NCBI RefSeq assembly: GCF_002007105.1
Contig: NZ_MVBC01000020.1
Span: 1-64,000 of the forward strand
DNA length: 64,000 nucleotides
From: Hymenobacter sp. CRA2
GTDB taxonomy: Bacteria > Bacteroidota > Bacteroidia > Cytophagales > Hymenobacteraceae
Direction: 5' to 3'
In this document: in pieces, positions 8,552 to 21,318 of the stretch
Layout: each line of letters starts with the position of its first letter
Position numbering within the stretch: the first letter of the stretch is position 1
The notes under the pieces: model-generated
Told to the model about the DNA's origin: nothing
The model's input: the letters and a program-made list of their open reading frames with translations, nothing else
Databases searched by the model: none
Program-made: the position numbers and the translations under genes

Positions 8552-10948
<2,397 letters not shown>

Positions 10949-10972
10949 TCCGGCGCTTTGCCTTCTTCGCTC

Positions 10973-11350
10973 ATGGATACTGCCCAACTACTGGTTACGG
11001 CGGGCGGCGCGGGGCTTATTGCCCTGGTCGTCTGGTTTTTCTTCTTTGCCCCGCACCGCGTGGCTGCGGCCGTGGCCGGTACTGGCGGCGTGCAGCAGGT
11101 CGACATCACGGTGAAGGGCGGCTACTCACCTGACGTCATCGAGGTGGAGCGCGGCCGGCTGGTGCAGCTCAACTTCTACCGCGCCGAAGACAACAGCTGC
11201 TCAGAGGAGCTGTTGCTGCCCGATTTTCAGATTCGGCGCGAGCTCCCCCCGTTCCAGACCACGGCCATCGAGCTGCTGCCCCGGCAGCCCGGCCGCTACG
11301 AATTCACCTGCGGCATGCACATGCTGCGCGGCAGCCTGGTAGTCAAGTAA
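10973..11350 (+). CDS. Membrane-anchored cupredoxin-domain protein
   Basis: 125 residues: one N-terminal membrane segment (about residues 6-27) and a single cupredoxin fold with putative copper ligands Cys in ENSCSEEL and Cys/Met/His/Met in TCGMHMLRG. It resembles the small EfeO-like or plastocyanin-like proteins often found beside copper ATPases in Bacteroidota, and probably binds or relays copper on the periplasmic side. ATG 10973 is preferred over a TTG at 10958. It starts 24 bases after copA and is probably cotranscribed. Confidence 0.8.
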   Translation: MDTAQLLVTAGGAGLIALVVWFFFFAPHRVAAAVAGTGGVQQVDITVKGGYSPDVIEVERGRLVQLNFYRAEDNSCSEELLLPDFQIRRELPPFQTTAIELLPRQPGRYEFTCGMHMLRGSLVVK

Positions 11351-11433
11351 GCCCGTAGCGCCCGGCGTAGTACCTTGCGCCGGGCAAGGCGGCTGACCGG
11401 CTGTGGCCGCTCGTTTTTGTTTGTTTTCTTTCG

Positions 11434-12021
11434 ATGAATCAACCCCGCCGCTGGAGCCGCTTCCTGCGCCCCTCTCTGTACGTGCTGATACCTGCCACCT
11501 TGTACGCCACCGGCCTACACACCGAAGTGCTGGGGCGGATGCAGCAGGGGATGTTGGCCACTGGCCTGTTTCGGCCGGCAGCCACATTGCCTGCCAAGCC
11601 GGGCCCCAAGGCCGATTACGCCCTGGCCCTGCGCACCCTCGACGGCCAGCCGACCACGCTGGCGCAGCTGCGCGGTAAGGTTATTCTGCTCAACTTCTGG
11701 GCTACCTGGTGCCCGCCCTGCGTGGCCGAAATGCCGGGCCTGGAGCGTCTGCACCAGAAAACCAAAAAAGATAACATCGCCGTGGTGCTGGTGTCGCTGG
11801 ACCAGAACCCGGACAAAGCCCGGCGCTTCGTGGCCCGGCGCGGCTTCACCGCCCCCGTCTACACGCTCGGCGACGCGCTGCCCGCCACCTACGCCACCGA
11901 GTCGATTCCGACTACGTTCATCATCGCGCCCAACGGCGACATTGTGGACCGCCACGAGGGTATGGCCGATTACGACAACGAGCAGATGCTGCGCTTTCTG
12001 CGCCAGCTAAAAGGTCGGTAG
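11434..12021 (+). CDS. TlpA-type periplasmic thioredoxin
   Basis: 195 residues with an N-terminal hydrophobic anchor or signal followed by a thioredoxin fold of the TlpA/ResA type. The active site is WCPPC (FWATWCPPCVAEMPG) and the cis-Pro loop is SIPTTF. It likely reduces disulfides in the periplasm. Its position behind copA and the cupredoxin suggests a role in keeping copper-protein thiols reduced, which is inference. The 83-base gap contains a GC-rich hairpin, so cotranscription is uncertain. Confidence 0.88.
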   Translation: MNQPRRWSRFLRPSLYVLIPATLYATGLHTEVLGRMQQGMLATGLFRPAATLPAKPGPKADYALALRTLDGQPTTLAQLRGKVILLNFWATWCPPCVAEMPGLERLHQKTKKDNIAVVLVSLDQNPDKARRFVARRGFTAPVYTLGDALPATYATESIPTTFIIAPNGDIVDRHEGMADYDNEQMLRFLRQLKGR

Positions 12022-12152
12022 CAAACGGGGTAGGGCATTGCTTCTGCTTGGCAAAATGCCTTGCCTGGTGGGCTATCAGGCCTGCCCAAAGCAGCTAGTC
12101 GGTTAAACAGTTGCGGGCGCCCTCTCCAACCCACGCCGCCGGGCTGCGTTAG

Positions 12153-12170
12153 GGAAAGCATTTGCTTTCC
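12153..12170 (+). promoter_or_regulatory. Hairpin immediately upstream of the MATE start codon
   Basis: GGAAAGCA-TT-TGCTTTCC is a perfect 8-bp inverted repeat ending 4 bases before ATG 12175. In mRNA it would occupy the ribosome-binding zone. It could be an operator or a translational control hairpin; nothing more can be said from sequence. Confidence 0.35.
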
Positions 12171-12174
12171 GCGT

Positions 12175-13593
12175 ATGGCTGCTCCCGTTTCGTCTCCCCG
12201 CCTCACCGAAGGCCCCATTCTGCAGTCCTTGCTGCGGCTGGCCCTGCCCATCGTGCTGGCCAACCTGCTGCAAACGGGCTACCAGCTCGTCGATGCGTTT
12301 TGGGTAGGCCGGCTCGGGGCCGATGCGGTGGCGGCGGTAGCGGTGAGCTTCCCCATCAACTTCCTGCTCGTGGCGCTGGGCTCGGGGTTTTCGGTGGCCG
12401 GCTCGGTGCTGGTGGCCCAGAACTTCGGGGCGCGTAACCTCGGCATGGTCAACCACGTGGCGGCCCAGACGCTGGCGCTGGAGCTGGTGCTATCGGTGCT
12501 GCTGACGGTCGTGGCCTACTTCGCTTCGCCCGCGCTGCTGCACCTCATCGGAGTAGGGGCCGATATCTTCACCGAGGCCGATGCCTTTCAGCGGGTGCTG
12601 TTCCTGGGCCTGCCGCTGAACTTCGGCTTCATCATGTTTCAGGCCCTGATGCGGGGCGTGGGGCAGGTGCGCATCCCGCTCTACATCAACCTGCTGGCCC
12701 TGGCGCTGAACTTCCTGCTCGACCCGCTTTTCATCTACGGCTGGGGCCCCGTGCCGGGGCTGGGCGTGGCCGGGGCGGCCATGGCTACCGTGAGCACGCA
12801 GGGCCTGTCGATGGTGCTGGGCATGGCGGTGTTGCTGCGCGGGCGCTCGGGCATTGCGCTAAGCTTCCGCGGCTTCCGCCCCGATTTCCAGCTCATGCAG
12901 CGCGCTTTCACCCTCGGCGTGCCCTCGTCCATTGATTTGTCGGCGCGGGCCCTGGGCCTGTCGATGATGACTACGCTGGCGGCCGGCTTCGGCACTACGG
13001 TGCTGGCCACGTACGGCATCGGCTCGCGGCTGCTGGCCATCGGGATTATCCCGGCGCTGGGCATTTCGCTGGCCTGCTCCACCCTGGTGGCCCAGAACAT
13101 CGGCGCGCGCAACCCCGAGCGGGCCCTGCACACGGCCCGCTACGCCATCGGGGTGAGCTTCACGTTGCTGCTGCTGGTGGGCGCGGCCGTGTTCGTGGCG
13201 GCCGAGCCGCTGGTGCGCTTTTTCCTGGCCGGCGACGAAGCCGTGACACGCGACGCGGTGGAATTTGTGCGTATTGCCGCTGGCAGCCTGTGCTTTACGG
13301 GCGTGCAGCAATCCGTATCGGGGGCGCTGCGCGGCACCGGCAACACGCTGACGGCCATGATGCTGACCATCGTCAGTACCTGGGTGCTACAGTTCCCTGT
13401 TGCCTGGTACCTGTCGAGCCACACCGACCTGGGCTTCCGCGGGCTGTGGTGGTCGTTTGTGGTGTCCAACGTGCTGGCCGCCTCGGTGTCGCTGCTGCTG
13501 TTTCTGCGGGGCCGTTGGCTGCGCAAGGACCTAGTCGATCCGCTGCAAAACGAAGTAGACGCGCTCAGCCCCGTGGCCGAAGAGCGCACTTGA
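12175..13593 (+). CDS. MATE family efflux transporter
   Basis: 472-residue membrane protein with about 12 hydrophobic segments and the two-fold MATE/MatE repeat. Conserved-looking segments include LTEGPILQSLLRLALPIVLANLLQ-like sequence at the N-terminus and a DAFWVGRLG stretch typical of the family. It probably exports cationic drugs or metabolites using an ion gradient. The frame is open from 12061, but residues before MAAPVSSPRL are not family-like, so ATG 12175 is chosen. The gene converges on the peptide-export operon, with a perfect palindrome in the gap. Confidence 0.9.
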   Translation: MAAPVSSPRLTEGPILQSLLRLALPIVLANLLQTGYQLVDAFWVGRLGADAVAAVAVSFPINFLLVALGSGFSVAGSVLVAQNFGARNLGMVNHVAAQTLALELVLSVLLTVVAYFASPALLHLIGVGADIFTEADAFQRVLFLGLPLNFGFIMFQALMRGVGQVRIPLYINLLALALNFLLDPLFIYGWGPVPGLGVAGAAMATVSTQGLSMVLGMAVLLRGRSGIALSFRGFRPDFQLMQRAFTLGVPSSIDLSARALGLSMMTTLAAGFGTTVLATYGIGSRLLAIGIIPALGISLACSTLVAQNIGARNPERALHTARYAIGVSFTLLLLVGAAVFVAAEPLVRFFLAGDEAVTRDAVEFVRIAAGSLCFTGVQQSVSGALRGTGNTLTAMMLTIVSTWVLQFPVAWYLSSHTDLGFRGLWWSFVVSNVLAASVSLLLFLRGRWLRKDLVDPLQNEVDALSPVAEERT

Positions 13594-13645
13594 GCCGCAA
13601 CGGCCGAATACTGATGGCGACCAGGCGTAGCCCGGGTACAAAATC

Positions 13646-13677
13646 GGCCCCCGGCCGCACGCGTGCGGCCGGGGGCC
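13646..13677. terminator. 32-nt perfect palindrome between convergent genes
   Basis: GGCCCCCGGCCGCACG is followed directly by its reverse complement. It lies between the convergent MATE and VKOR genes and probably terminates or protects transcripts from both sides. It lacks a strong T-run; the minus strand has only GATTTTG after it. Confidence 0.6.
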
Positions 13678-13704
13678 AAAGCTTTCATAACGGCGCCCGG
13701 GAAA

Positions 13705-15324
13705 TTAAGCCGGTTGCAGCAGCTCATCGGTGGCCACCTCGGCGCTGAAGTAATCGGCGAGGCTGGGAATCAGCAGCTGCAGGTCGGTGGGCTTGTAGCC
13801 GGGCGGGAACTGGTAGCCGTTGATGAAGAGCGTGGGGGTGCGCTTGATGTGCTGCTGGCGGCTCCACAGGTTGTGCTGCGTCACAAGCTGGGTGCTCAGC
13901 GCATGGTCGCCGCTGAAGTCGGCGGGATGCGTGGCGCCGAAACGCTCCGGGTTCATCACCGCGTACCAGGCATGGATCATGTCGCTGGTGCGCTGCGACT
14001 GATCGGGCGTGCCCCACACGTGCGTCAGCCAGTGCTGCAGCAGGTACTGCGTGCTCGTCGGGAATTTGCCGGAGTCGGCCCCGCTGATAACCCAGCGCAT
14101 GCGCAGCTTCAGCTGCTCGGGGTAAAGCTGGAGCAGGTGGTCCAGGCGCGCGTGCATGTGTTTGCAGGGCGCGCAGAAGGGGTTGCTCACCATGATGATT
14201 TCGACCGGCGCCTCGGGGTTGCCGATGACCATTTCCTGCGCGAATTCGCGGGTATCGGCGCGCGGCTGCTGTTGCAATGCGGCGGTGAACAGCTCTATCG
14301 CGTTTTTGCCCTGCTGCAACTGCTGCTTACGCTTGAGCAAATCGTTGTGGCGCTGGCCGTACTGCTTCAGCAACACCACCAGGCCCGCAATAGCCAGCAG
14401 CGCCAAGGCGGCATTCAGCACCGCTACCGGCGCCAGCGTACCAAGGGTAAATTGTCCGGCGGCAAAAGCGTACACGGCCAGGCCGGCCTGCACCAGCAGC
14501 ACGGCATCCACGCCCAGGCACAGGCGGCACCAGGCCTTGGCCACGGCATATTGGTAATAGACCGACAATGCCACCACCGGCAGGCCCAGGACCGCCGCAA
14601 TGCCGAGCAAGGGATATACGCCCGGCCTTAGATCAGGCGCCAGCGCCAGGCTGGTCAGCACGGCTGCTTGCCAGAGAAAGTACGTGGCCGACGCATCGGA
14701 GAGCTTGAAGAAGCCCAGCACGTTGACGGGGTCGGTGTGCAGCACGTCGTCGCAGCCGGCCTGGGGGCCGCCACCGCAAAACTCCGCTACCAGCTCTTGC
14801 GCAAAGTCCAGGTCGCTGGCAAACAATAGGTAGCTGATAAAGCCGCCAGCCAAGGCGGTGAGGTAAAAACCCGCGCCCAGCCAGCCGGCGTAGTGCAGCA
14901 CCGGCTGCAGAAGGAGCAATGCCGTCAGCCCTACGGTGAGCCTGGTCACGAGCAAGAGTTTGCGCTCCGTCTCGTACCGTTCGCGCTGCTCCTTATCCGG
15001 GGCCACGCGCATGCCGTCGATCTGCAGCAGGATGCCGCTCCACCCGGCATCCTCGCGCCGGGCCGCGGCCAGCTCCGCCGCGTTGCGGATCAGCAGCAGG
15101 TCGCCGCCGTTGCGCTCCACGTGCGCCAGGTACGGAAACGCCACGTCGGGCAGGTCTTCGTCGGCAAACTGCGCCGCCAGACTGTTGACGCCCAGGCTGT
15201 CGAGCACATCCGACACGCTCAGCAGCGAAGGATAATCGGGGTGCGAGCGGACCAGGTCGATAAACTCGTGCCGAGCCACCGGCAGCCGCTGCAGCTGTAA
15301 AAATCGGGCTACTACTTGCTCCAT
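13705..15324 (-). CDS. C39-like / VKOR / thioredoxin fusion, probable peptide disulfide oxidase
   Basis: 539 residues in three parts. Residues 1-110 resemble a C39 peptidase fold (HPDYPSLLSVSDVLDSLG) but lack a catalytic Cys. Residues ~125-320 are a multi-span vitamin K epoxide reductase domain with the loop pair Cys183/Cys191 and the active pair Cys266-x-x-Cys269 (WCRLC). Residues ~355-539 are a DsbA-like thioredoxin domain with CAPC at 384-387 and a TPTLF cis-Pro loop. Such fusions couple quinone reduction to disulfide formation in the periplasm (VKOR knowledge). Placement last in an operon with two six-cysteine peptides argues that those are its substrates. The open frame reaches 15807, but the residues upstream of MEQVVARF overlap the adaptor gene and are not family-like. 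Confidence 0.87.
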   Translation of the reverse strand: MEQVVARFLQLQRLPVARHEFIDLVRSHPDYPSLLSVSDVLDSLGVNSLAAQFADEDLPDVAFPYLAHVERNGGDLLLIRNAAELAAARREDAGWSGILLQIDGMRVAPDKEQRERYETERKLLLVTRLTVGLTALLLLQPVLHYAGWLGAGFYLTALAGGFISYLLFASDLDFAQELVAEFCGGGPQAGCDDVLHTDPVNVLGFFKLSDASATYFLWQAAVLTSLALAPDLRPGVYPLLGIAAVLGLPVVALSVYYQYAVAKAWCRLCLGVDAVLLVQAGLAVYAFAAGQFTLGTLAPVAVLNAALALLAIAGLVVLLKQYGQRHNDLLKRKQQLQQGKNAIELFTAALQQQPRADTREFAQEMVIGNPEAPVEIIMVSNPFCAPCKHMHARLDHLLQLYPEQLKLRMRWVISGADSGKFPTSTQYLLQHWLTHVWGTPDQSQRTSDMIHAWYAVMNPERFGATHPADFSGDHALSTQLVTQHNLWSRQQHIKRTPTLFINGYQFPPGYKPTDLQLLIPSLADYFSAEVATDELLQPA

Positions 15325-15362
15325 GGGAGAACGGATAAGGAGTGGGAAATACAGACGAGAAA

Positions 15363-16655
15363 TCAATGCTCGGTCCGCGCTAGCGCCGAGAGCTGATTGA
15401 AGAGCCGCTCCAGCAGGCGCTGGTCGCGGGTAATGACTTCGGCCGTGGCCGTCATGCCGAGCTTGTAGCTGAGCTTTTTGCCGCGGGAAGTCACTAAGTC
15501 GCTCGGCAGGCTGACTTCGGCCACGTAGCCCTCCTGCAGCGGAATTTCCGCCACCGACTTTACCGTGCCCCGCACCAAACCGAATTCCTGGTAAGGGTAG
15601 CCGTTGAAGCGGATGAGCACCGTCTGGCCCACCTGTACCTTGCCGGCGTTTTGCTGCGCGATGCGCATCTGACCGGCATAGGAGGTGTTGCCGGGCGCCA
15701 CGTAAAAGAGTATCTGCCCGGTGCTCACCTGCTGATTTTCCTGCAGGGGCAGCGGAAAAAACACCCGACCGGGGCTGGGCGCCCGCACCACGTACTTTCG
15801 CTCCCACTCATCGGTAGCGCTCTGCAGCGCGTTCAGGGCTTGCAAAAACTGGTCGCGCTGCTCGGTCATGGACTTGTCCAGCTCCAGCAGTTCCTGCTGT
15901 TTGCCGCGCTGGGCGGTGGCGTTGCTGATGAGCGAGGAGGCCGTTTGGCGGTAAGGCAGCTGCTGAGCCAGCAGCTTGCTTTTCTCGCGCTGCAGGTCGA
16001 TGGGCGCAATGACTTTCTGCTGGGCCAGGCCCTGTTGCAGCTGGTAGTCGTTTTCGGCCAGGGCCAGCGCCTGCCCCTGAATGGCCTGCTGCTGCTCCAG
16101 GTTGCGGGACATGGCCTGCAGGTCGCCGAGCTCCTGCCGCAACAGGGTCCGCTGCCGGGCAAAAAAGCCCTGCGTGAGGTACGTGCGCAGCTGCAGATGT
16201 GCCAGGGCAAAGGGCTGATAAGCCGCCTGCAGCTCCCCGAGCTGGTGAAACTGCGCCAACGGCAGCCGCGCCACCTGCTCTAGCTGGCCGGCGCTGGCCA
16301 GCTGCCAGGCCTGGCGCAGCTGCTGGCTCAGCTGCAACACCTCGTCGGGCTGAGCAGTGCTTTCCAGGTAGGCCAGCGGTGCGCCGCCGGTCACGGTGGT
16401 GCCCTCGTGCACCAATAGGCGTGTAAGGCGCCCGCCGCTACGGGCCGGAGCGGTTTTGGGAGCGTTGACGGAGGTGAGGGTGAACTTGGCCGGCACCAGG
16501 TCGGGGAAGTGGATCAGCCAGCTGCCGTAGAGCACTGCGGCCAGTAGCAGGGCAATGAGCGTGATGCTCCAGCGCACAAACCACGTGGGCTGCCGCGCCA
16601 GCATGTCCTGCACCTCCTCGGCGCGCAGCTCCACGAAGCGGGTAGGGGTAGGCAT
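15363..16655 (-). CDS. HlyD-family membrane fusion protein of peptide exporter
   Basis: 430 residues: a short cytosolic N-terminus, one membrane segment at about residues 28-48, a lipoyl/barrel-sandwich hybrid half-motif (LTRLLVHEGTTVTGG), a long coiled-coil hairpin rich in Leu/Gln/Glu (residues ~80-290), and a second lipoyl half plus beta-barrel (RVFFPLPLQENQQVSTGQ). This is the periplasmic adaptor that links a C39 ABC exporter to an outer-membrane channel. The start is ATG 16655, 13 bases after the ABC gene stop. No TolC homologue lies nearby, so a channel encoded elsewhere is needed. Confidence 0.9.
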   Translation of the reverse strand: MPTPTRFVELRAEEVQDMLARQPTWFVRWSITLIALLLAAVLYGSWLIHFPDLVPAKFTLTSVNAPKTAPARSGGRLTRLLVHEGTTVTGGAPLAYLESTAQPDEVLQLSQQLRQAWQLASAGQLEQVARLPLAQFHQLGELQAAYQPFALAHLQLRTYLTQGFFARQRTLLRQELGDLQAMSRNLEQQQAIQGQALALAENDYQLQQGLAQQKVIAPIDLQREKSKLLAQQLPYRQTASSLISNATAQRGKQQELLELDKSMTEQRDQFLQALNALQSATDEWERKYVVRAPSPGRVFFPLPLQENQQVSTGQILFYVAPGNTSYAGQMRIAQQNAGKVQVGQTVLIRFNGYPYQEFGLVRGTVKSVAEIPLQEGYVAEVSLPSDLVTSRGKKLSYKLGMTATAEVITRDQRLLERLFNQLSALARTEH

Positions 16656-16668
16656 GACGCAGAGAAGG

Positions 16669-18948
16669 TTAGGCGCCGAGCGCGAGTTGGTTTTTGACGA
16701 GGTGCCAGTACTGCCCGCGCTGGGCAATGAGGCTGGCGTGCGTGCCGCTCTCGGTGAGCCGGCCTTTGTCGAGCACCACGAGTTGGTCGGCGTGGCTGAC
16801 GGTGCTTAGGCGGTGGGCCACTACCACCACGGTGCGGCCGCGGAAAAACTCCTGCAGCCGCCCCCAGATAACGGCTTCGTTGTTGGCGTCCAGGGCGTTG
16901 GTGGCCTCGTCGAAGAACAGGTACTGCGGATTCTTGTATACGGCCCGCGCAATGAGGATGCGCTGGCGCTGCCCCTGGCTGATGCCGCTGCCGTCGGCCC
17001 CGATTTTGGTGTGCAGCCCCAGCGGCAGGGTGCCGATAAAATCCTCTAGGTTGGCTACGTGCACGGCGTGGGCCAGCTGCGCCGCGTCGATGCTTTCCAC
17101 GCCCACGGCGATGTTGCGGGCAATGGTGTCGGAGAACAAAAAGCCATCCTGCATCACCACCCCGCACTGCTGCCGCCAGCCCGCGTGGCTTACGTTGCGC
17201 AGCGCCACGTTGCCCACCCGGATGTCGCCCTCGCTGGGCGCGTAAAACTTCAGCAGCAGCTTCAGCAGCGTGGTTTTGCCGCTGCCGCTCATGCCCACGA
17301 TGGCCGTGGTACGCCCGGACGGAATCGAGAGGTTCACCCCGTCGAGCACCGTGACCTGGCCCGCGCCGGGGTAGGTAAAGGACACGTTGCGCAGGTGCAG
17401 GGCCTGCTGCTCGGTGGCCACGGAGCCGGCGGGTACGGGCGGCGCCAGGGCCAGGGTGCCCTCGGGCTCCTCGTCGGCCATCGTGTGAATCTCGTTGAGC
17501 CGCTCCACGCTGAGTTGCGCGTCCTGCAGGTTCTGCACGAAGCTCACCAGCTGCTCCACCGGGCCGTTGAGCTGGCCCACCATGTACTGCATGGCCAGCA
17601 TAGCACCGAGGGTCAGCTGCCCATCGATGACGGCCTTGGCGGCCAGAAAGGTGATGAATACGTTTTTGCCCTCGTTCAGGGCAAAGGCCCCGGCTTGCTG
17701 ATACTGCTGCAGACTCAGGGACTTCATTTGCAGCTTAAACAGCCGCGCCTGCAGCCGTTCCCACGCCCAGCGCATGGGCCGTTCGGCCCCCGCGAGCTTG
17801 ATTTCCTGCATGCCCTGAATCAGCTGCACCAGCATGCTCTGGCTGCGGGCCGAGGCGGCAAAGCGCTTCTCGTCCAGCTTGCGCCGCTGCCGCAGAAACA
17901 GCCGTATCCAGCCCAAGTACAGCACGCTGCTACCGGCAAACACCAGAAAAATGGTCGTGTTGTACAGGGCCAGCACCACGCCGAATACCACCAGGTTCAG
18001 CAGGGAAAGCACGATGTTCAGCGCCTGCCCCGTCAGGAAGGATTCGATGCGGTGATGGTCGCTTATGCGCTGCATCAGGTCGCCGTAGTGCTTCGTGTCG
18101 AAGTAAGCTACCGGCAGCCGCATGAGTTTGATAAAGAAGTCGGAGAGAATGTTCAGGTTCAGCCGCGTGCTGATGTAGAGCAGTATCCAGCTGCGGACAA
18201 ACTCCACCGCCAGACGCCCCAGTAGCAGCACCAGCTGTGCCCCCAGGATGAGGTACAGGAACGGCACGTTCTGGGTGTTCACGCCCACATCCACCACGGC
18301 CTGCGTGAGGAAGGGCAGCAGTAGCTGCAAGCCAGCCGCTACCACCAGACCCAGCAGCAGTTGCCCGATCAGCTGCTTGTGCTGCAGCACGTAGCCAAGC
18401 AGGCGCTCGAAGCCGTAGGATGGGGCCGGCGCCTCGTCTTCCTGTTCGTAAAAAGCCGGCGTGGTTTCGAGCAGCAAGGCAATGCCCGTGTGAGCACCCT
18501 GTTGCGCATCGGCGGCCCAGTGCTCCTGAAATTCTTCGGCCGAGTAAGTCAGCAGCCCGCGGCCGGGGTCGGCCACGTAGAAAGTTTCCTGGTGAGCCGA
18601 CGTCTTTCTGGAACGCGTGCGCAGTTTGCCGCGCCAGCGCGCCCAGGAGGGTGGCTTTTTCACGTCGTGCACCACCACGTAGTGGTTCTGGTCCCAGAGC
18701 ACGATGCAGGGCAGAGGCGCCTCCTCCACTAGGCTGCTCATCTCCATTTCCACGCCCATGGTGCGGAAGCCCACCGCTTCGGCTGCCTCGGCCAGGCCCA
18801 GTAAGGATGTGCCTTCACGCGCCAGCTGGCCTTTCTCGCGCAGCGTCTGCACCGGAATGGAGCGGCCGTAGTGCCGCGCTATCATGCGCAGGCAGGTAGG
18901 GCCACAGTCCATGATGTCGTGCTGCCGGTAATGGGGAAACTTCGCCAC
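16669..18948 (-). CDS. Peptidase C39-domain ABC exporter (double-glycine peptide processing)
   Basis: 759 residues. The N-terminal C39 peptidase has Gln9, catalytic Cys15 (DCGPTC), His89 (NHYVVVHD) and Asp127 (VADPGRG), so it should be active and cut after a double glycine. The six-span exporter domain covers about residues 185-450. The nucleotide-binding domain has Walker A GMSGSGKTT (552-560), signature SGISQGQRQR (~654-663) and Walker B YLFFDEAT (~676-683). The start is a GTG at 18948: an in-frame TAG lies just upstream, and any later ATG would remove part of the peptidase. Two peptides with matching leaders are encoded directly upstream. Confidence 0.94.
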   Translation of the reverse strand: MAKFPHYRQHDIMDCGPTCLRMIARHYGRSIPVQTLREKGQLAREGTSLLGLAEAAEAVGFRTMGVEMEMSSLVEEAPLPCIVLWDQNHYVVVHDVKKPPSWARWRGKLRTRSRKTSAHQETFYVADPGRGLLTYSAEEFQEHWAADAQQGAHTGIALLLETTPAFYEQEDEAPAPSYGFERLLGYVLQHKQLIGQLLLGLVVAAGLQLLLPFLTQAVVDVGVNTQNVPFLYLILGAQLVLLLGRLAVEFVRSWILLYISTRLNLNILSDFFIKLMRLPVAYFDTKHYGDLMQRISDHHRIESFLTGQALNIVLSLLNLVVFGVVLALYNTTIFLVFAGSSVLYLGWIRLFLRQRRKLDEKRFAASARSQSMLVQLIQGMQEIKLAGAERPMRWAWERLQARLFKLQMKSLSLQQYQQAGAFALNEGKNVFITFLAAKAVIDGQLTLGAMLAMQYMVGQLNGPVEQLVSFVQNLQDAQLSVERLNEIHTMADEEPEGTLALAPPVPAGSVATEQQALHLRNVSFTYPGAGQVTVLDGVNLSIPSGRTTAIVGMSGSGKTTLLKLLLKFYAPSEGDIRVGNVALRNVSHAGWRQQCGVVMQDGFLFSDTIARNIAVGVESIDAAQLAHAVHVANLEDFIGTLPLGLHTKIGADGSGISQGQRQRILIARAVYKNPQYLFFDEATNALDANNEAVIWGRLQEFFRGRTVVVVAHRLSTVSHADQLVVLDKGRLTESGTHASLIAQRGQYWHLVKNQLALGA

Positions 18949-18984
18949 GGTATTCGCTATGCGTACACAGATAAGCTAAAGAAG

Positions 18985-19015
18985 CCGGTTCACAAGTGCG
19001 TAACCTGTGAACCGG
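18985..19015 (-). terminator. Hairpin between peptide gene and exporter gene
   Basis: CCGGTTCACA and TGTGAACCGG pair across an 11-base loop. On the minus strand it is followed by CTTCTTTAGCTT, a weak T-tract, so it may act as a partial terminator or mRNA stabiliser, allowing the peptides to be made in excess over the exporter (inference). Confidence 0.5.
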
Positions 19016-19033
19016 TATTCAATAGAGGCTGGT

Positions 19034-19243
19034 TTACCCGCAGCTGATCTGACTTTCGTCGGGGCAGTAACAAATGCCACCGCCTGGGCCGTCGTTAGCT
19101 GGTAAAGCCATGGCTCCACCGCTGCAGGTGCAGCGGTAGCCACAGCCGTCCGGGTCGTCAACCGGCGGTCTGCCACCGGTGATGGATTTCATTTTGGCGC
19201 GGCTAAGCTGGCGCTGTTCCTGGAATTTGGTTATTGATTTCAT
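19034..19243 (-). CDS. Double-glycine leader peptide with six cysteines (peptide 1)
   Basis: 69 residues. The leader RQLSRAKMKSITGG ends at Gly23-Gly24, and the predicted mature part is 45 residues starting RPPVDD. It has cysteines at 34, 38, 40, 58, 60 and 68, in the order C-x3-C-x-C-SGG...C-x-C-x7-C. Leader features (hydrophobic positions before GG, L-S-R motif) match substrates of C39 exporters. The cysteine pattern is shared with peptide 2. The longer open frame to 19285 lacks leader character; ATG 19243 gives the same leader length as peptide 2. It is likely a secreted disulfide-rich bacteriocin- or signal-like peptide; the activity is unknown. Confidence 0.85.
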   Translation of the reverse strand: MKSITKFQEQRQLSRAKMKSITGGRPPVDDPDGCGYRCTCSGGAMALPANDGPGGGICYCPDESQISCG

Positions 19244-19352
19244 TATGAATGCGTTAATTGTTTCGTTTCGCTTTGATGTGTCCACTTATAGGAGCAACTC
19301 AAGGCAAGCAATAAGGAATACCGAATGGCATCTTTTTCTGCTTGATGAAGGA

Positions 19353-19568
19353 CTACTGGCCGCCCGTGCCAACGGAGCACGGCAGCGCATAGCCACTGTC
19401 GCAGACGCATGAGCCGTTGCTATAGTAGGAGGGCTCACCCCCGCTGCAGATGCACCCGTGTACCGGATCCGTGCAGTTCAACGCCTCAGGAGGGCGGCCA
19501 CCCGTAACCGCTTTCATCTGCTCGCGGCTGAGCGCGCGCTGACCTTTGATACTTTCGAATTTTTTCAT
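19353..19568 (-). CDS. Double-glycine leader peptide with six cysteines (peptide 2)
   Basis: 71 residues. The leader RALSREQMKAVTGG ends at Gly23-Gly24, the same position as in peptide 1, and is followed by RPPEAL. The predicted mature part of 47 residues has cysteines at 32, 39, 41, 54, 56 and 64, again C...C-x-C-SGG...C-x-C-x7-C. It is the first gene of the export operon, 109 bases upstream of peptide 1. The paralogues share the leader and cysteine frame but little else, which fits a two-component or diversified secreted peptide family. No YGNGV pediocin box is present. Confidence 0.85.
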   Translation of the reverse strand: MKKFESIKGQRALSREQMKAVTGGRPPEALNCTDPVHGCICSGGEPSYYSNGSCVCDSGYALPCSVGTGGQ

Positions 19569-20505: not shown

Positions 20506-21318
20506 TTAGGACTGCTGGCCTTCCAGCTGCTTCAGTCGCTCATACGTCTTTTGCGACTGGGCATACTGGCGGTGCACCTCCCGGCGCAGGTAGGGTGGCA
20601 AGGCGCCGTCGCTCAGGGCTTCTTCATATGCCTTCAGGGCCCACTCTTCCCCGTACACGTTCGAGCCGAGAATGGCTTTTTCGTCGCGGCCGGTGATGGC
20701 GGCTTTGGTGTCCATCCAGGCCCGGTAAAGCTTGCCTTTCAGCGTCGTGCCGTCTTCATGGCCGCCGTCCTGCTGGCGCAGGTGGTTGTTCAGCTGGGTG
20801 GCAAACTGCTGGCTTTGACTTACCAGCTGCTTGTAATAGCCGCGCAGCTCAGAGTCCTTGCTTTCCTCTACGGCTCGCTGATAGCCCTCAATACGGTCAT
20901 TGACGAAGAGCAGCAGCTCGCGCAGCGTGTCAGCCTGCGCCCCGGAAGATTTAGCGGCAGTACGCTTGTTCTGCTTTTTCGGGGCCGACTGCCCTGAGCG
21001 GCTCAGCAGGTACCAGCCGCCGGCAGCTACCAGGGCTCCGCCCACTACTTTCTGGGTGGTGGAGAGCTGACGCCAGCGGCCGGCCGTTTGGCCCGCGAGG
21101 CGTTTTACAGGTTCGGGAACCTGGGTAAGGGCGGTGGGCAAATTGTTGCCTTGCAGCCACTGTTGGGCCTGAGCCAGCAGGCCGGTTGCGGCGGCCGGTT
21201 CGGCCGGGGCATCGGTGGCAGTGGCGCGGTCGGGGTGCAGCTTGGCGTCGGCGGCGTCGGACAGGGCCTGGGCGGCCGGCGAGTTGGGGCTAACGCGGGG
21301 CGAATGTGGATGGCTCAT
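20506..21318 (-). CDS. PA2169-family four-helix-bundle protein (DUF2383)
   Basis: 270 residues. The N-terminal 85 residues are Ala/Pro rich, followed by a short hydrophobic stretch (VVGGALVAAGGWYLL) and a basic linker. The C-terminal 140 residues form the DUF2383/PA2169 ferritin-like four-helix bundle (LLLFVNDRIEGYQRAVEES, WALKAYEEAL). Proteins of this family are often stress-associated, but the biochemical function is not established. ATG 21318 is chosen; upstream residues in the open frame are not family-like. The gene is monocistronic and has its own terminator. Confidence 0.8.
   Translation of the reverse strand: MSHPHSPRVSPNSPAAQALSDAADAKLHPDRATATDAPAEPAAATGLLAQAQQWLQGNNLPTALTQVPEPVKRLAGQTAGRWRQLSTTQKVVGGALVAAGGWYLLSRSGQSAPKKQNKRTAAKSSGAQADTLRELLLFVNDRIEGYQRAVEESKDSELRGYYKQLVSQSQQFATQLNNHLRQQDGGHEDGTTLKGKLYRAWMDTKAAITGRDEKAILGSNVYGEEWALKAYEEALSDGALPPYLRREVHRQYAQSQKTYERLKQLEGQQS

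Follow-up and report, generated by a model that had tools for sequence, protein, structure and literature searches.

Bacteroidetocin loci encode a double-glycine peptide with paired cysteines, a C39 ABC exporter, and a thiol oxidoreductase whose deletion weakens activity; the peptides, proposed as class IIf, can be lethal to related bacteria, with BamA as their target (Coyne et al., 2019, PMC6671954; PMC8546649). Glycocin clusters such as those for sublancin and pallidocin combine a C39 exporter with BdbA (thioredoxin-like) and BdbB (DsbB-like) for disulfides (PMC6405829). The subject here is an operon of Hymenobacter sp. CRA2 (Bacteroidota; genome 5.88 Mb) lying in the first 64,000 nt of contig NZ_MVBC01000020.1, hereafter the window. 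At 13705–19568, on the minus strand, five genes encode two six-cysteine double-glycine peptides, a C39-ABC exporter, an HlyD adaptor, and a fusion of C39-like, VKOR, and DsbA-like domains. The general scheme is already known from bacteroidetocins and from glycocins with BdbA/BdbB; what seems to be new is the enzyme architecture. The reading favored, at a probability of roughly 0.55, is that disulfide formation is leader-guided and takes place on the cytosolic face, followed by cleavage and export by the C39-ABC exporter.

Bacteroidetocins come from the same phylum, and a C39 ABC exporter and a thiol oxidoreductase are common to both loci. Their mature length of 42–53 residues (PMC8546649) spans the 47 and 45 predicted for the window peptides, but their leaders, 15–16 residues ending in GG (PMC6671954), are shorter than the 24 residues found here, and bacteroidetocins A and B have four cysteines rather than six. 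Bacteroidetocin loci also encode an uncharacterized five-transmembrane (TM) protein separate from the thiol oxidoreductase, whose type the main text of the paper does not specify, whereas the window has one C39-like/VKOR/DsbA-like protein together with HlyD; no separate five-TM gene is among the five, and a comparable number of helices lies inside the fusion. The apparent likeness is one of gene content and described peptide features. Glycocin clusters use two separate redox enzymes, whereas here VKOR, in the place of DsbB, is fused to a DsbA-like domain; they also include a peptide glycosyltransferase, and none is among the five operon genes. Three glycosyltransferase/DUF representatives from relatives, SunS not being among these queries, had no match in the window.

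Other likenesses are to parts of the fusion. With the Synechococcus VKOR (3kp9/4nv2) it has in common the core fold, the redox cysteines, and a linked thioredoxin-fold domain, but it is unlike ordinary VKOR-Trx proteins in its DsbA-like domain, in its added C39-like domain and extra helix ahead of the core (TM0), and in its inverted loop charges. The N-terminal domain shares its fold with the C39-like domain of HlyB and the C39 domains of ComA, PCAT1, and LahT, but is joined to a redox enzyme instead of an ABC transporter. An inverted VKOR is known from the archaeon Aeropyrum pernix, with its active site toward the cytosol; it serves general cytosolic oxidation, whereas the window fusion appears linked to a single class of leader peptides. 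For a protein joining C39-like, VKOR, and DsbA-like domains, no paper was found in the open-licence literature among the matches listed, and passages of PMC10352776 and PMC11195462 do not treat such an architecture.

Operon and precursor peptides

Transcription runs from peptide 1 through peptide 2, the exporter, and the HlyD adaptor to the fusion, with intergenic gaps of 109, 85, 13, and 38 bases. The original prediction, made from the sequence alone, had named the same five minus-strand genes between the same coordinates, and open reading frames (ORFs), Pfam matches, and catalytic residues bear it out. It had also proposed six-cysteine cores of 47 and 45 residues after GG, as both precursors indeed predict: peptide 1 (19353–19568; 71 aa; leader MKKFESIKGQRALSREQMKAVTGG) and peptide 2 (19034–19243; 69 aa; leader MKSITKFQEQRQLSRAKMKSITGG) each have a 24-residue leader ending in GG. 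Core cysteine spacing is 6-1-12-1-7 in peptide 1 and 3-1-17-1-7 in peptide 2, and core net charge is about -3 and about -4, respectively. The two are 43% identical (E 7.5e-5), leader and cysteine order being common to the tandem copies.

Convincing core homologues were not found in 120 genomes of the family (additional matches had E 0.0075 or worse, many with stops); Pfam gave no domain match for either peptide, a PDB sequence search nothing useful, and neither fits an EGF-like spacing. Since the cores match only each other, they are best regarded as orphans, with the leader as the shared part. A strict leader pattern run over all six frames of the 64 kb matched exactly peptides 1 and 2, while 60 first-order Markov resamplings of the window gave 0.03 matches per run and none with an even cysteine number of four or more. 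The NCBIfam model TIGR04149, for radical-SAM-modified ribosomally synthesized and post-translationally modified peptides (RiPPs), scores them at 14.6 and 22.2 bits, below its curated cut-off of 25, and other NCBIfam models also score under their cut-offs; no ORF of at least 220 aa with the CxxxCxxC motif of radical SAM enzymes occurs in the window. By score and by neighborhood, then, the peptides appear to fall outside the TIGR04149 family.

The exporter gene (16669–18948, GTG start) has C39, ABC membrane, and ATPase domains by Pfam, and the adaptor (15363–16655) is of HlyD type. Cys15, His89, and Asp127 of the exporter are at positions conserved among 12 exporters, and a Walker A motif and ABC signature are present, making it by definition a peptidase-containing ABC transporter (PCAT): a C39 domain with Cys/His/Asp fused to an ABC exporter. 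It is the only C39-ABC protein detected in the genome at E <= 1e-20, eight further matches beginning at query residue 150 or later, and would be the protein that cuts after GG and exports the peptides.

The fusion protein

The last gene (13705–15324), matched in Pfam to VKOR and Thioredoxin_4, encodes 539 aa with six predicted membrane helices, six redox cysteines, and a cis-proline. The VKOR core (residues 148–290; 14455–14883) carries C183, C191, and C266-x-x-C269, and the DsbA-like domain (residues 340–531; 13732–14307) C384-A-P-C387 and cis-Pro497. All seven positions are kept in 89/89 homologous fusions longer than 480 aa (the 91 described below, minus two that are shorter). The modelled VKOR core superimposes on Synechococcus VKOR with Z 13.7 and a root-mean-square deviation (rmsd) of 2.5 over 135 residues; a loop cysteine pair, CxxC, and a VKOR fold, in this case a modelled one, place the fusion in the VKOR family, whose cores with this cysteine arrangement are quinone-linked oxidases. 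In the full model the DsbA-like domain matches ScsC (the top match), a Salmonella homologue, and BdbD (ranks 2–8: Z 14.9–15.7, rmsd 2.6–3.1, 156–162 residues). The original prediction took this protein for the only dedicated oxidoreductase in the operon, which it is, but elsewhere in the genome there is a second, standalone VKOR-family protein (contig C40:121265-121654; L239:5200-5727) with the CxxC pair only and no loop cysteines.

Overlooked by that prediction was the N-terminal domain (residues 1–105; 15010–15324), which resembles a C39 peptidase but has lost its nucleophile: the C39 nucleophile motif is found in none of the 89 long fusions. Compared with the C39 domains of neighboring exporters by hhalign, it has a probability of 98.3 (E 1.2e-14); Pfam Peptidase_C39 matched 9 of 12 fusion members, the best at 2.5e-17, the window copy not being among the nine; and a 41-sequence profile (every second one of the 80 available N-terminal domains, plus the window copy) retrieved from the PDB the C39 domains of ComA, PCAT1, and LahT, at E 2.9e-8 to 0.0012. 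As the VIA-align rows do not contain this domain, it was folded on its own (predicted local distance difference test, pLDDT, 89), and its best structural matches were ComA, PCAT1, and HlyB, including the C39-like domain of HlyB, which likewise is without protease activity.

In two relatives the fusion is spread over two reading frames (L028:9813-10208/8671-9831 and L030:1798-3386; in L030 the frames share four bases), which would reflect either frameshifts or a genuine arrangement as two genes.

Membrane topology

TM0, a hydrophobic helix ahead of the VKOR core, is present in 89/89 fusions, with nothing aligned there in 11/11 VKOR-Trx comparators. These came from 21 non-fusion VKOR loci, 11 used as comparators, seven standalone and shown apart, and L286 and L304 (wrong frame) and L154 (no loop cysteines) left out. 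With six helices, both ends of the fusion are expected on the same side of the membrane. The density of lysine plus arginine (K+R) is greater on the redox side in 87/89 fusions but 0/11 comparators; in the latter the charge index is negative throughout, the loops opposite the active site being rich in K/R and the redox side poor, the pattern expected for a periplasmic active site. Mean K+R counts along the fusion are 3.4 before TM0, 0.5 between TM0 and TM1, 4.3 in the redox loop, 0.1 between TM2 and TM3, 2.0 between TM3 and TM4 (with almost no acidic residues), 0.3 between TM4 and TM5, and 6.5 after TM5. Odd cysteine numbers occur in the DsbA-like domain of 33/89 fusions versus 0/11 comparators, which is easier to accept in a reducing compartment. 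There is also a weak alignment between the join of the C39-like domain to the first helix and PCAT1, a protein with its C39 domain in the cytosol.

Because of the helix number, the loop charges, and the odd cysteine numbers, the DsbA-like domain, the VKOR active site, and the C39-like domain are all predicted to be on the cytosolic face. The same three features speak against the original proposal that three disulfides are made in the periplasm, although the signal from the window copy itself is weak.

Distribution and associated leader peptides

The arrangement is widespread, which the original prediction had not recognized. With the window fusion as query, matches were found in 14/148 relatives, including its own genome and one short partial match; a fusion profile found 41 of 395 genomes sampled across the phylum; and a GTDB contig scan gave 129 relatives, from which 80 named loci were kept. 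These 80, the window, and ten others make up 91 fusion loci (90 from Bacteroidota and one, Fodinibius, from Balneolota), leaving out L034 (no fusion match) and L023–L025 (duplicates of named loci). An exporter of the same kind is present in 39/41 fusion-positive and 17/354 fusion-negative genomes (Fisher 5.6e-38), with scoring limited to the top two or three candidates in each genome. The 91 still include close pairs (e.g., L053/L060, L069/L105) and four of the VKOR-Trx comparators are from one genus, so p-values overstate independence.

In the fusion tree, the window copy is in a supported group of seven with L021, L022, and L047 of its own family, a Cyclobacteriaceae, an unranked Bacteroidetes, and the balneolote, while copies L026, L027, and L029 of the family are placed elsewhere (L022 and L029 are long branches). 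This scattering suggests lateral movement. The fusion is matched in seven plasmid records, in four of them over at least 80% of the protein.

Leader peptides near the fusion were collected with a pattern that ignores cysteine, written after the first loci had been inspected; lanthipeptide leaders fit it poorly, so that part of the per-locus contrast with the controls (54 loci that have a C39 exporter and no fusion) reflects the leaders themselves. Relatives retaining the exporter and VKOR genes mostly do not lack the peptides, an absence that would have told against the original prediction: a leader peptide bearing four or more cysteines lies within 3 kb at 74/91 fusion loci, versus 2/54 controls (75/91 versus 4/54 within 8 kb). 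Within 3 kb there are 123 distinct leader peptides, 122 with at least four cysteines and 117 with an even number, as against eight, four, and one in the controls; within 8 kb the corresponding counts are 141, 137, and 133, as against 21, six, and four. The window peptides, 3.7 and 4.0 kb from their fusion, are counted in the 8 kb set only. The nearest leader peptide has an even cysteine number at 71 of the 74 loci. Even numbers are what paired cysteines predict, lanthionine peptides using cysteines singly; even-cysteine leader peptides can also occur away from the fusion. Gene content, domains, conserved redox residues, and a phylum-wide link between the fusion and even-cysteine peptides are thus all evident in the sequences, and the original idea of an export operon for double-glycine peptides with probably paired cysteines and a dedicated oxidase is supported.

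The cores are hypervariable, with 99 clusters among 137 peptides and 62 distinct spacings among 64 six-cysteine cores; 95 of the 137 are acidic, 23 neutral, and 19 basic. The leaders have L at -12, M/Q/L at -7, and I/V at -4, but these are no independent test, as the search pattern demanded them. An alignment was made of 120 of the 122 peptides from relatives (two from L114 omitted) with the two window peptides. The six-cysteine pattern put forward originally as a search key does not serve: it misses peptide 1, which has nine residues after SGG where 10–20 were specified, and it matches no peptide from the relatives. Nor is the spacing diagnostic, since among the 137 only the two window peptides fit a loose form of it and only peptide 2 the exact form. 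Four of the 64 six-cysteine cores fit an EGF-like spacing (0.15 by shuffling) and 15 a looser framework, C..C..C..CxC..C (0.5 by shuffling), which was drawn up after nine of its 15 matches were known, leaving six independent. Forty of the 122 aligned peptides score on the TIGR04149 model at E <= 0.05, although CxxxCxxC ORFs (250–700 aa) within 6 kb of the 91 loci number two; the name "rSAM-modified RiPP" is probably misleading for these. Two GG-leader peptides of Chitinophaga eiseniae (L051:11652-12005 and 12090-12440) contain an LDL-receptor class A domain (exceeding the Pfam cut-off, at 2.2e-9 and 9.8e-11), a three-disulfide module best known from animals. Up to eight tandem short GG peptides, mostly with four to six cysteines, stand beside the fusion in Flavobacterium and Bacteroidales loci L106, L111, L114, and L119.

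Neighboring gene families were counted in the 91 fusion loci and the first 35 of the 54 controls. LanB-type dehydratases occur in 16/35 controls (among L205–L238 and L240) versus 2/91 fusion loci, and LANC_like genes of two kinds in eight and five of the 35. DUF4369/TlpA-type thioredoxins are near the peptides in 54/91 fusion loci (e.g., L089:17159-19441) versus 3/35 controls, and propeller or Porph_ging proteins lie 3' of the peptides in five and four loci (e.g., L062, L049); these could possibly be isomerase, immunity, or delivery partners. At 29/91 loci there is a neighbor from one of five glycosyltransferase/DUF groups: UDPGT (six loci), a group including some Glyco_transf_25 (six), Glycos_transf_2 (three), DUF6734 (ten), and DUF6625 (six); examples are L028:7304-8638, L050:6889-8340, L054:13231-14070, L073:13144-14472, and L092:13368-14291. 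None of these groups is represented in the window operon, but by analogy with glycocins some fusion-linked peptides may be glycosylated.

Proposed pathway and alternatives

The C39 domain of LahT grips hydrophobic leader residues at -4, -7, and -12 in a groove that lies some 20 angstroms away from its active site (PMC6363468). As C39 domains hold such leader positions, the most natural role for an inactive one attached to a redox enzyme is to bind the leader. C39 exporters cut leaders in the cytosol, and intact leaders should therefore exist there only.

Leader binding, the direction of electron flow, the cytosolic location, and the order of events we infer to be as follows. The precursors, a 24-residue double-glycine leader followed by a small acidic, glycine-rich six-cysteine core, would probably be bound through the leader by the C39-like domain. 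The C-terminal DsbA-like domain would form the disulfides and the VKOR core hand the electrons to quinone, so that the precursor would acquire its three disulfides while still carrying the leader; this is placed ahead of export because the predicted topology puts all three domains on the cytosolic side. The C39-ABC exporter, with its HlyD adaptor, would then cut after GG and export the folded core. Extended to the phylum, these fusions would be maturases in which a dead C39 domain reads the leader in the cytosol and an inverted, quinone-linked VKOR-DsbA oxidase folds disulfide-rich peptides of widely differing cysteine spacing before export, a generalization offered tentatively, at slightly under even odds. 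The same near-even caution applies to its inclusion of eukaryote-like LDL-receptor class A modules and to its view of disulfide bonding as a modification directed by the leader, comparable to lanthionine or radical-SAM chemistry.

Several points weigh against this reading. Cytosolic disulfides are unusual, and they would oblige the C39 exporter to let a folded peptide through. Positive-inside counting is a statistical rule of thumb; the window fusion has a charge index of +0.037 against a family mean of +0.142, with no K or R in its redox loop, and the index is negative in two fusions (L052 and L055). C183 is aligned in just 4/11 comparators, the loop edges being alignment-derived; the comparators, from the same phylum as the fusions, span seven genera, with four from one; and TM2 is weakly hydrophobic in 13/89 fusions. 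The full fusion model is middling (pLDDT 78.6; predicted template modelling score, pTM, 0.52), the C39-like domain has modest E-values in Foldseek (1.3e-3 for the best match), and 8/89 fusion rows contain a stop or unread codon. No leader peptide was found at 17/91 fusion loci within 3 kb and 14/91 within 8 kb, some of these on short contigs, and control loci L213, L238, and L254 have even-cysteine leader peptides (four, six, and eight cysteines) with no fusion in the available DNA.

The main competitor, which seems unlikely although it has real points in its favor, is oxidation after export: the fusion would have ordinary VKOR topology, with TM0 lying along the membrane or just dipping into it, and the C39-like domain would serve in the cytosol for anchoring or docking. 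The DsbA-like domain would be periplasmic and form the disulfides on the emerging core, the site of oxidation named in the original prediction. Ordinary bacterial VKOR-Trx proteins work in this way, and Synechococcus VKOR is matched at Z 13.7; the weak charge signal of the window copy fits as well, as does the frequency of DUF4369/TlpA-type neighbors, by which extracytoplasmic thiol chemistry may play a part in many loci. Glycocin clusters also pair their thioredoxin-like and DsbB-like proteins with the SunT exporter (PMC6405829). It would, however, require that a helix hydrophobic in every long fusion not span and that K/R-rich segments lie outside and K/R-poor loops inside in 87/89, the reverse of all 11 comparators, leaving both TM0 and the charges unexplained, and it would put DsbA-like domains with odd cysteine numbers in the periplasm. 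Distinctly improbable is that the fusion reduces peptide cysteines or isomerizes disulfides: DsbA-like folds include both kinds of enzyme, and ScsC is the top match, but the four VKOR cysteines of a quinone-linked oxidase are present in 89/89, and where a C39 exporter occurs with no fusion, thioether peptides are often the product, to judge from LanB. That the precursors are a misreading, small cysteine-rich ORFs fallen by chance beside an unrelated transporter, has next to nothing left to it: small ORFs are easily over-called and the cores lack convincing homologues in the family, but resampled windows yield none, the tandem copies share leader and cysteine order, and the linkage is phylum-wide.

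What the peptides do is a separate matter from where they are oxidized. Growth inhibition of competitors, the likeliest role and the least supported part of the reading, is plausible by analogy: hypervariable cores behind a constant leader fit competition peptides, and bacteroidetocins, which follow the same leader-exporter-oxidoreductase logic, kill Bacteroidales (PMC6671954 and PMC8546649). Against it, the window shows no evident immunity gene, and the cores are mostly acidic or neutral, unlike typical membrane-active bacteriocins. These points, the propeller, Porph_ging, or DUF4369 proteins that follow the peptides in some relatives, and the two LDL-receptor class A peptides of C. eiseniae would suit extracellular signals, metal binders, or ligands of surface partners, which on balance is a somewhat doubtful alternative, if one with appreciable weight.

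Flanking sequence

A terminator-like hairpin of 16 pairs followed by a T run (13644–13679, minus strand) lies 3' of the fusion gene, at the end of the operon. As a hairpin scan of the window found nine terminator-like sites with 7.3 expected, only this one is notable. A 13-pair hairpin between peptide 2 and the exporter gene (18985–19015, minus strand), from a consensus scan only, is a possible attenuator or 3' end stabilizer. The Bacteroides promoter motif has no match across the window.

Beside the operon, at 8552–12021, are a P-type ATPase that by eye is of copper type, a cupredoxin-like gene identified with Pfam, and a TlpA-like thioredoxin. The TlpA-like gene, at 11434, was considered as an operon member and rejected: it is on the opposite strand, past a MATE gene, and three sister genomes have it in 19.5 kb stretches that lack the operon. 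In one sister genome (G003), alignments of the cupredoxin gene and of the gene at 20506 end about 90 bases apart, and the operon, MATE, and TlpA genes are missing from the 19.5 kb. A clean insertion at an empty site is nevertheless not the explanation, the 20506 gene being inverted in G003 and the TlpA and MATE genes absent along with the operon.

Implications

The LanB counts in control and fusion loci suggest that one C39 exporter family serves both thioether peptides and disulfide peptides. If the proposed reading is true, a single marker gene leads to a large set of secreted Bacteroidota peptides rich in disulfides, most of them without a name, the size of the set being indicated by the 41/395 sampled genomes with the fusion and the 137 distinct peptides with at least four cysteines near 91 fusion loci. 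A single enzyme may then oxidize many unrelated cysteine frameworks behind one leader, which would be useful for peptide production, and the system would open the formation of disulfides in a bacterial cytosol to direct testing.

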